Below are positions 51,272-54,890 of a DNA stretch of 64,000 bases, piece by piece. Position numbers and translations under genes: made by a program. The notes beneath the pieces are model-generated. The model did not search any database. It worked only from the letters and a program-made list of their open reading frames with translations, and was not told the DNA's origin. Within the stretch, counting starts at the first letter, position 1, and each line of letters begins with the position of its first letter. Source of the DNA: Nitrososphaerota archaeon (GTDB lineage: Archaea; Thermoproteota; Nitrososphaeria; Nitrososphaerales; Nitrosopumilaceae); contig JAGWFW010000002.1 of assembly GCA_028867735.1 (NCBI GenBank), forward strand, positions 17,952 through 81,951, in the 5' to 3' direction.

Positions 51272-52549
51272 ATGATACGAATAGAGGCAGAAGTTCCTAG
51301 AAATGATCTGATGGGCGTAAGCGACGCACTCAGGATAATTGATGTATCCATTAACGTATCAAAAGTTAAGGGCAGGGGAAAAGGTGTTGGCTCGAAAGTT
51401 CATGCTGCAAAAGGCACAGAGATGTATCGCTCAGAGTTTCAGGACAAGTATGTAGTGCAGGTGACCGTCCCAGATAACATTGAAAATGACGTGGTCGAGA
51501 TAATAAAATCAAACTCAAAAACAGGCAAGATTACTATATTCCCAGTATCACGCGTGATAGACATTGGCTCGGGGGTGGAAAATGAGCAGGCACTTGCCCT
51601 CAACGAATACGACGGCGTCATACTGACAGCTGCCAAGAACCAGAACACGTCTTTCCCGTTTGGCTTTGCTACGGAAAACATGAAAGTTGCCCTTCCACAA
51701 ATTGAAGGAGAAAAGGGATACTATGACATGTTTGAGAAGAAATTTGTCCCGTTAAATGTGCTCGAATCTGTAATCTATCATGTCAAACCTATTGAAAGAT
51801 TTCAGATTCTCTCTGCAGATGATGCAGTAGTAATAGAGAGCATGACCCGGGTAAAGAGAAACTTTTCACTGTATAAAATGAAAATGTCTGATTCGTATTC
51901 ACAGGCCTTTCTAAAATACGTTGCAAGCAGGTTTCTCAGCCTGTGGCCAGAGCAGGAAATCAACGTCGTAATCCTATATGTGGATATAGTGGGCTCTACA
52001 AAACTTGCAACCCTTCTCAGCTCAGAGGAACTCTCAGGTCTTATCAAGGTATTTTCAGAGGAAATGTCTGTCATAGTGTCAAAACATGCAGGATTTGTGT
52101 TAAAATATGCAGGAGACGCGGTGATTGCATTTTTTCCAGAGCTCAAAGAATTTGGAAACATGGCGGAAAACGCAGTGAGATGCGCAAACTCGATGAATAT
52201 GCTGATAAAATATTCCATCAATCCAATCTTTGCAAGCCTTGGCCTGCCGACCATCAGTGTGAGAATAGGTATTGATGCAGGAAAAAACAGGATAGTCTTT
52301 CTCGGCTCAGATCCAGACCTGATCGGACACAGTATTACAATCGTATCCAAAATACTGCCGCTTGCTCAACCCAATCAAACAACAATCGGTGATGCGGCAT
52401 ACGGATTGCTCTCTTCTGGATTTGCGGAGCAGTTTACAAAAATCAATCCGGACGATAAAAGATGGAATTACACTCATCCTGGAACTGGAGTGGTCTATCC
52501 AATCTATTTTTCAAGATATCTGGTGCAAATATCGGATCTCAAGGCCTAG
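51272..52549 (+). CDS. P-II-like domain fused to class III adenylate/guanylate cyclase-like domain
   Basis: N-term GRGKGVGSKVHAAKGTEMYRSEFQDKYVVQVTVPDNIENDVVEIIKSNSKTGKITIFPVSRVIDIGSG (P-II-like); C-term INVVILYVDIVGSTKLATLLSSEELSGLIKVFSEEMSVIVSKHAGFVLKYAGDAVIAFFPE (class III cyclase core). Confidence 0.8.
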   Translation: MIRIEAEVPRNDLMGVSDALRIIDVSINVSKVKGRGKGVGSKVHAAKGTEMYRSEFQDKYVVQVTVPDNIENDVVEIIKSNSKTGKITIFPVSRVIDIGSGVENEQALALNEYDGVILTAAKNQNTSFPFGFATENMKVALPQIEGEKGYYDMFEKKFVPLNVLESVIYHVKPIERFQILSADDAVVIESMTRVKRNFSLYKMKMSDSYSQAFLKYVASRFLSLWPEQEINVVILYVDIVGSTKLATLLSSEELSGLIKVFSEEMSVIVSKHAGFVLKYAGDAVIAFFPELKEFGNMAENAVRCANSMNMLIKYSINPIFASLGLPTISVRIGIDAGKNRIVFLGSDPDLIGHSITIVSKILPLAQPNQTTIGDAAYGLLSSGFAEQFTKINPDDKRWNYTHPGTGVVYPIYFSRYLVQISDLKA

Positions 52550-52560
52550 AATAGGGCTGT

Positions 52561-53148
52561 TTATTTTTTAAATTTCTTACTTGTGAATCGAGCCAATCCC
52601 ATCCTTCGCAATTCATCTGATTCCCTGATGATTGACTTGTGTTGTTCTTCCTTGTATTTTTTTAATTTTTTCTTGAGATCTGGAAACTCGTTTGCCAAAA
52701 TCTTGATTGCGTAAAGCCCAGCATTTGCCGCCTTGTTTACACCAACAGTCACAACAGGCGATCCTGTAGGCATTTCAGATATAGACAATAAAGAATCCAG
52801 CCCTCCAAAGGCAGAAAACTTGAATTTGTCAGAGTGACCCTTGTCGTTATAAACCATTATTGGTACCCCTATTACTGGGACTATGGTGTGAGACGCAACC
52901 ATCCCTGGCAGATGAGCTGATCCTCCGGCTCCTGCAATTATCACCCTGAATCCCTCAATCTCTGCATGCTTTGCATAGTCTGAGAGTCTTGTGGGGGTTC
53001 GATGAGCTGATACGATCTGATCCTCGTGTTTGACGCTAAACTCGTCTAGAATCACGGCAGCAGAGTGCATGACCTTGCTGTCCGAGCTTGAACCCATGAT
53101 TATGCCAATCAGGGGTTTTTTTGAATAGGCCACAAGTTCATGCAACAC
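52561..53148 (-). CDS. purE: N5-carboxyaminoimidazole ribonucleotide mutase
   Basis: IGIIMGSSSDSKVMHSAAVILDEFSVKHEDQIVSAHRTPTRL; IIAGAGGSAHLPGMVASHTIVPVIGVP. Confidence 0.95.
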   Translation of the reverse strand: MLHELVAYSKKPLIGIIMGSSSDSKVMHSAAVILDEFSVKHEDQIVSAHRTPTRLSDYAKHAEIEGFRVIIAGAGGSAHLPGMVASHTIVPVIGVPIMVYNDKGHSDKFKFSAFGGLDSLLSISEMPTGSPVVTVGVNKAANAGLYAIKILANEFPDLKKKLKKYKEEQHKSIIRESDELRRMGLARFTSKKFKK

Positions 53149-53432: not shown

Positions 53433-54890
53433 TCACGTGTTGCAAAACCAATTGTTTTGAGCACCACCATTATACAACGACTGTATTGCATTAACATCGC
53501 ATTCTGATATGTACGGATGATTTGTTTGAACCGTATCTTGCACCATGTTCTGGGGCCCGTTAGAGTTCGAAAGACCCAAGGCATGACCAAATTCATGCAC
53601 TGTTATTGCCGTAAGCTGACTGTCTGAAAGCTTGTCCGCACCATAAATGGTAATAAAAGACTTTAAGATCTGCGAATTGCCAACAATCAACTTGGTATAT
53701 GCAGAGTAGCCATCGGGATCTTTGCCATTAGACAAAAATATTACAATCTGGCCTGAGTTGTCAGAAGAGTCTGCTATATTGAACTGGTTTGGCACGTAAA
53801 ACTCTGTGTTATTTATTGTATCCAAAGCTCCCTTCCAACCCTTGAAGTACTCTGATTTCTTGTCTGATGTAATTCCATCAAGGAAGGAACTGCCAGTGTA
53901 CAATACGTCTGTTGAGAGAATGGCTTTTTTGATATTGTTGATTTTTTCCTGACTTAGATTGGATAGATTTACTATGTTAACAGTCAACGGCGTTCCTTTG
54001 GCAACATTCCAATGCTGAGTGGCACTTGTCTGTCCTTGCAGATCCTCTATTGAATATTTTGTCTTGATGCCGAGGGTGCCAATCTGATCTGGTTGATAGT
54101 AATTGTCAATAGCATAGAAAAACAAGATTGCAAGTACTGCCAGTGCAATCAGTTCTACTTTCAGCGTGACCCCTGCATTAATTTTTTGTACTACTTTTTT
54201 TATTGTTGTGCTACCATGAGGTACTGCACCTTCCATCCTAATCCTATTGTCGGCTTTTCCACACTGTACGTAATCAAGCAGTTGACCAGAGTTTGTTTTA
54301 CTAGGCTCTGATGATTGGAATTGCCCTGCTATTTCGTCAGGTTCTTTTGCACGTGTTAACAGTTGTGTTCTGGACTGTTCAGCAGATCCGTTTTTATTTG
54401 ATGGCTGCCGGTTTGCCGACATTTCACAGTCAGTGCCTGTTTTCGTAAATGTTACCCTCTCTTTGCGTACAGAGGCATGTCCCTCAATTTGAGAAATCAA
54501 TGCTTTTAGTGCAAATGGTTTGTTCATGACCTCGACTTTTTCTTTGAGGTCACTCAGTTTTTTTATAACATCTGTTCCGTATCCGGTAACGAAGATTATT
54601 CTCTGTTTTGGATCGAGTCTCTGGATCTCTCTGGCAACATCTATGCCATCCATTCCGGGCATTTTTTGATCTAGTATTATTACATCTAAAGGTGGTTCTG
54701 ATACATTGTTATTCTTTAGGTAATCAAAATAAGTTTGTAGACACTCATCACCGCTTCTTGCTGTCGTAACCGCGTATCCAATATTTTCAAGTGCGTTCTT
54801 GTATGTCTCAGTCAAATCTTGGTTATCTTCTGCTATGAGTATTCTTTTGGCCATCCTAACCCATCTGGTTTGAACATGTGATATTTCCAT
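53433..54890 (-). CDS. Response-regulator receiver domain fused through a TM segment to a metzincin-like (matrixin-like) metalloprotease domain
   Basis: REC: ILIAEDNQDLTETYKNALENIGYAVTTARSGDE...VIILDQKMPGMDGIDVA...VEVMNKPF. TM: VELIALAVLAILFFYAIDNYY. Protease: TAITVHEFGHALGLSNSNGPQNMVQDTV. Confidence 0.85.
   Translation of the reverse strand: MEISHVQTRWVRMAKRILIAEDNQDLTETYKNALENIGYAVTTARSGDECLQTYFDYLKNNNVSEPPLDVIILDQKMPGMDGIDVAREIQRLDPKQRIIFVTGYGTDVIKKLSDLKEKVEVMNKPFALKALISQIEGHASVRKERVTFTKTGTDCEMSANRQPSNKNGSAEQSRTQLLTRAKEPDEIAGQFQSSEPSKTNSGQLLDYVQCGKADNRIRMEGAVPHGSTTIKKVVQKINAGVTLKVELIALAVLAILFFYAIDNYYQPDQIGTLGIKTKYSIEDLQGQTSATQHWNVAKGTPLTVNIVNLSNLSQEKINNIKKAILSTDVLYTGSSFLDGITSDKKSEYFKGWKGALDTINNTEFYVPNQFNIADSSDNSGQIVIFLSNGKDPDGYSAYTKLIVGNSQILKSFITIYGADKLSDSQLTAITVHEFGHALGLSNSNGPQNMVQDTVQTNHPYISECDVNAIQSLYNGGAQNNWFCNT

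Follow-up and report, generated by a model that had tools for sequence, protein, structure and literature searches.

A conserved fusion of a GlnK-like P-II domain to a predicted class III nucleotidyl cyclase in Nitrosotalea suggests a link to the ammonium transporter Amt1

In the stretch of DNA analysed here (64,000 nucleotides from a genome of Nitrosotalea, a genus of acid-soil archaea, hereafter the window), a P-II domain and a class III nucleotidyl-cyclase domain are encoded in a single chain, and this fusion is real and conserved in the genus. As amoA is present in the window's genome, the host of the fusion is an ammonia oxidiser. P-II proteins act through contact with separate partners. 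We tentatively read the fusion, with somewhat less than even confidence, as a soluble predicted class III cyclase governed by a GlnK domain of the type that accompanies the low-affinity ammonium transporter Amt1, and possibly docked on Amt1. The pattern of its presence and absence suggests, but does not prove, that through the fusion the supply of ammonium is relayed as a small-molecule signal.

A first-pass annotation, made from the letters alone, had described an uninterrupted 425-aa ORF with P-II hallmarks in its first part and both metal-binding contexts of class III cyclases in its C-terminal half, and its coordinates and motifs are correct (Table 1). Both proposed domains score above their Pfam cut-offs: Guanylate_cyc (PF00211) matches residues 229-388 (E 7e-8, 32.7 bits against a cut-off of 21.9), and P-II (PF00543, cut-off 25) matches residues 2-98 of the whole protein (E 9e-6, 26.4 bits), rising to 31.1 bits when residues 1-115 are searched alone; some of the orthologues score slightly under this second cut-off. 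Pfam gave no further match in the fusion, the linker included. Against PDB sequences, the P-II part matched E. coli PII (1pil, E 6e-6), and the cyclase part matched CyaB (3r5g, E 1e-8). The AlphaFold models, for which alignments of window and locus proteins were used, place the P-II domain in the ferredoxin-like P-II fold (pLDDT 85; Foldseek TM 0.84 to Anabaena PII, 3n5b), with the Foldseek list otherwise filled by further P-II structures, and in the full-length model the cyclase portion has CyaC as a Foldseek match (1wc1, E 1e-12). In the full-length model (pTM 0.69) the linker and the arrangement of the domains are of low confidence.

Table 1. Features of the fusion gene and its constant neighbour (positions in the window)
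Feature	Position	Strand	Description and basis
P-II / class III nucleotidyl-cyclase fusion gene	51272..52549	+	425 aa plus stop; ORF, Pfam, orthologues
P-II (GlnK-like) domain	51272..51598	+	residues 1-109, B-loop-less thaumarchaeal subfamily; Pfam, model, Foldseek, tree
T-loop	51380..51439	+	residues 37-56
Shortened B-loop	51515..51544	+	residues 82-91
Linker	51599..51886	+	residues 110-205 (~95 aa), conserved, GEKGYYD...KKFVP hairpin
Two helices leading into cyclase domain	51824..51940	+	residues 185-203 and 209-223; model
Class III cyclase catalytic domain	51956..52441	+	residues 229-390; Pfam, Foldseek
First metal Asp, D238	51983..51985	+	invariant
K278 (taken as adenine-type Lys) through D282 (second metal Asp)	52103..52117	+	invariant
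D349 (taken as adenine-type Asp) through T356 and K360	52316..52351	+	T356/K360 replace Asn/Arg
purE (AIR carboxylase)	52561..53148	-	constant convergent neighbour by which the locus is recognised; outside the proposed device

A search of the literature on P-II plus cyclase in Thaumarchaeota returned a single mention, one sentence in which Gerhardt et al. 2020 (PMC7646526) name a Nitrosotalea P-II / guanylate-cyclase protein (A0A2H1FDM3) and link it to c-di-GMP without analysing it further. This protein comes from the same genus and carries the same two Pfam domains, and it is probably an orthologue; new with respect to that mention are the distribution of the fusion, the origin of its P-II part, the state of the active site and the link to Amt1. 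That the fusion controls c-di-GMP, as that paper suggests for the same architecture, draws on the interaction of the P-II protein GlnZ with a diguanylate cyclase in Azospirillum (PMC7646526), where a P-II protein is likewise tied to second-messenger metabolism. The GlnZ system, however, consists of separate proteins, relies on 2-oxoglutarate-dependent binding and acts on GGDEF/EAL-type enzymes of another fold. Because the fused domain is class III by both profile and fold, and P-II and Guanylate_cyc were the only domains that Pfam gave, we regard a c-di-GMP output as very improbable.

The full-length fusion was found in 23 of 37 Nitrosotalea genomes, at 71-96% identity, and is present but frameshifted in a 24th (Candidatus Nitrosotalea sp. 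TS); in the survey of Nitrososphaeria that the first-pass annotation had proposed, no fusion from another genus was among the top matches listed for 401 genomes sampled from the class, nor among those listed for 401 genomes from the phylum. Throughout the genus it occupies one syntenic slot beside purE, and in genomes without it the flanking genes of this slot directly adjoin each other. With 266 contigs, the draft assembly of the window's genome is fragmented, which could raise the suspicion that a misassembly or a frameshift had joined two adjacent genes, but the same fusion in 23 separate assemblies, two of them single contigs (G005 and G035), and the conservation of the flanking gene order leave such an artefact with virtually no probability. 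Neither of the two outcomes that the first-pass annotation had named as fatal, a fold other than P-II or a misassembly, appeared, and a true fusion in an ammonia oxidiser stands. The dN/dS ratio is 0.02-0.03 in the P-II, linker and cyclase segments alike, whichever of the two clades is considered, with dS approaching saturation in the clade of the window; the fusion is, by this measure, under strong purifying selection.

A few further observations concern the locus and its surroundings. An operon with the upstream genes was rejected because the upstream neighbour is not the same in the two clades. A second, truncated fusion copy (residues 1-180, 88% identical) lies on contig C58 of genome G000 (positions 1-540, locus L002); it is nearer to the G017 orthologue, and represents either a second gene or a mixture of strains in the bin. 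Beyond purE, a 485-aa ORF (53433-54890, minus strand) combines a response-regulator receiver domain (PF00072, E 3e-18) with a matrixin M10 peptidase domain at its C-terminus (PF00413, E 2e-8), and a 444-aa member of its BLAST family was found elsewhere (L038, 7995-9329). Long open frames had also hinted at other fusions (e.g. 416 aa in G109, contig C1), but the P-II ORF there is a stand-alone one of 125 aa.

The fused P-II copies form one group (support 100/100) whose branching matches the genome tree at the main forks, which fits a single fusion event followed by vertical descent. Both in Nitrosotalea and beyond there are unfused proteins related to residues about 123-415, the linker from about residue 123 onward being found in unfused cyclases as well, and for this reason a pre-existing linker-plus-cyclase protein probably acquired the P-II domain. 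As to where this domain came from, its closest relatives are P-II genes located beside Amt1, and it sits in a 30-member clade of thaumarchaeal P-IIs (support 100/99) in which five residues of the B-loop and the equivalents of R101 and R103 are missing. A tandem pair of such B-loop-less genes adjoins Amt1 in divergent orientation (L122, 11748-12456 and 12573-13823; L126), L122 belonging to the window's genome, and B-loop-less P-II genes next to Amt1 occur in G005 too, as well as in several further genera. With GlnK proteins paired with Amt/AmtB (in E. coli, and archaeal GlnK1) the fusion shares the P-II fold, the T-loop and descent from transporter-adjacent P-II genes, whereas it differs from them in its attached cyclase, its deleted B-loop, its missing late arginines and its location away from amt. 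The T-loop has been kept more strictly than its surroundings in the P-II domain: residues 43-49 and 51-55 (VHAAKGT.MYRSE) are invariant among 20 fusions, 60% of the loop is invariant against 32-39% of the P-II segments directly before and after it, and the HA(A/S)KGTE-type motif of Amt1-linked P-IIs is retained.

Canonical P-IIs bind nucleotides, and the absence of the B-loop and of the late arginines is expected, from P-II structures in general, to weaken the binding of ATP and 2-oxoglutarate. The shortened B-loop pointed out by the first-pass annotation is a five-residue deletion relative to E. coli PII in which the G-D-G is gone; neither the complete canonical B-loop (TGxxGDGKI) nor the two late arginines (IRIRTGE) are found in the fusion, which has Asp and Gly/Ser at the positions of R101 and R103, and these arginines are also missing in the nearest stand-alone relatives. 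Since this subfamily is thus devoid of the ATP-phosphate B-loop and of both arginines, the usual sensing of ATP, ADP and 2-oxoglutarate, which the first-pass annotation had carried over to the fusion, appears doubtful.

Within Nitrosotalea, 23 genomes had the fusion together with Amt1 and its linked pair of P-II genes, the nine others that were scored had none of the three, and there was no mixed case. The nine genomes without the fusion have neither Amt1a nor Amt1b nor the P-II pair, yet retain Amt2 and amoA; the genus therefore includes amoA-positive ammonia oxidisers with Amt2 only (G011, G013, G020, G034 and five less complete genomes). In three incomplete genomes (G006, G028 and G033) Amt1 was present and the fusion was not found, but since the neighbouring purE is also missing in two of them, the locus has probably simply been left out of the bin. 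When the states are placed on a tree built from nine other genes, there are four independent switches, and the fusion and Amt1 change together at all four, which still holds if the genomes are restricted to those with a completeness of 95% or more. With only four events, however, this concordance does not reach significance (sign test, p = 0.125), and the joint loss may simply track a change of lifestyle.

These data also bear on a P-II-regulated cyclase whose P-II part senses a soluble ligand, be it a nucleotide or another metabolite, and plays no direct role at Amt1. Nucleotide binding by canonical P-IIs, an intact P-II fold and the retained K86 of the shortened B-loop would agree with it, but the deleted B-loop and absent arginines, as in the Amt1-linked subfamily, and the strict co-occurrence with Amt1 speak against it, so that we consider it rather unlikely.

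In the cyclase domain, whose core is the most conserved part of the fusion, both metal-binding aspartates are kept, as the first-pass annotation had claimed: D238 and D282, together with K278 and D349, do not vary among the fusions, and nearly all of the unfused relatives aligned have them too. We take K278 and D349, on the basis of family knowledge, to be the adenine-type base-recognition pair. The catalytic fold, the two metal aspartates, the GD motif and a homodimer-type residue set are shared with CyaC (1wc1) and CyaB (3r5g), but the fusion differs from both in its N-terminal P-II domain and in its transition-state positions, where the usual Asn and Arg of class III cyclases are replaced by Thr (T356; one orthologue has Ser here) and Lys (K360). 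The first-pass annotation had noticed these two changes, which are confirmed, and feared that activity might be lost or altered; the concern about a loss is weakened, as far as alignments can tell, by the finding that every Nitrososphaeria cyclase aligned, fused or unfused, has Lys at the Arg position, with Thr or Ser at position 356 also common. K360 hence predates the fusion, a decay specific to this gene was rejected, and a lineage-wide Lys fits an altered enzyme better than a dead one. More broadly, the sampled class III cyclases of Nitrososphaeria (L003, L006-L008, L032-L037, L082-L112) have Lys for the catalytic Arg, and the position of the Asn is mostly taken by Ser, Thr or Asn. We found no characterised enzyme with a Thr/Lys pair at these positions, and the Lys-type cyclases of Nitrososphaeria are an uncharacterised branch of class III.

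It could still be that the cyclase domain of the fusion does not cyclise, and serves instead to bind ATP as an energy sensor or a scaffold, while the P-II domain provides the output by binding to Amt1 or to other P-IIs. The Asn-to-Thr and Arg-to-Lys changes would fit such a role, for which a solved structure whose PDB title names an ATP-binding protein of class III cyclase-like type (6yii) offers a precedent, as would the finding that the CRP-type cyclic-nucleotide receptor domain PF00027 is absent from the 16 Nitrosotalea genomes searched, the window's included, while control genomes matched as expected. The invariant metal and adenine-type residues, the strong conservation of the cyclase core and the lineage-wide Lys argue otherwise, however, and we judge a non-cyclising domain to be improbable, though by no means negligibly so. 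The product of the cyclase may have a receptor of a kind other than PF00027.

To return to the Amt1-governed cyclase that we favour, the enzyme would probably be a homodimeric adenylyl cyclase with its own complete set of active-site residues, and its N-terminal domain would have been copied from the GlnK family beside Amt1. Its most likely input would be the state of Amt1 or of the two partner P-II proteins: through its conserved T-loop, the fused P-II might dock on the Amt1 trimer or form mixed trimers with these partners, and either event could shift the linker helices and, with them, the cyclase dimer. We prefer this reading because the two domains agree by Pfam and fold, the 23 full-length orthologues show low dN/dS throughout, the P-II part with its conserved T-loop belongs to the Amt1-adjacent clade, switching with Amt1 is concordant, and the four active-site residues are invariant. 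Against it weigh the lack of a PF00027 receptor, the T356/K360 pair, the symmetries of a P-II trimer and a cyclase dimer, which are not simply matched, the p value and possible lifestyle effect mentioned above, and the low confidence of the linker model. A bolder version, in which the fused P-II takes the seat of GlnK on Amt1 and the flow of ammonium through the channel directly switches cyclic-nucleotide production at the unusual Thr/Lys site, seems to us rather unlikely; if true, it would constitute a nitrogen-input second-messenger system in archaea.

Little is known of how archaeal ammonia oxidisers sense their substrate. An Amt-type P-II joined in one chain to a predicted messenger-making enzyme, and inherited and lost along with one transporter, offers a concrete path, open to testing, by which the supply of ammonium could become a cell-wide signal, and it also points to a whole branch of archaeal class III cyclases that have Lys for the catalytic Arg and for which no receptor is known.
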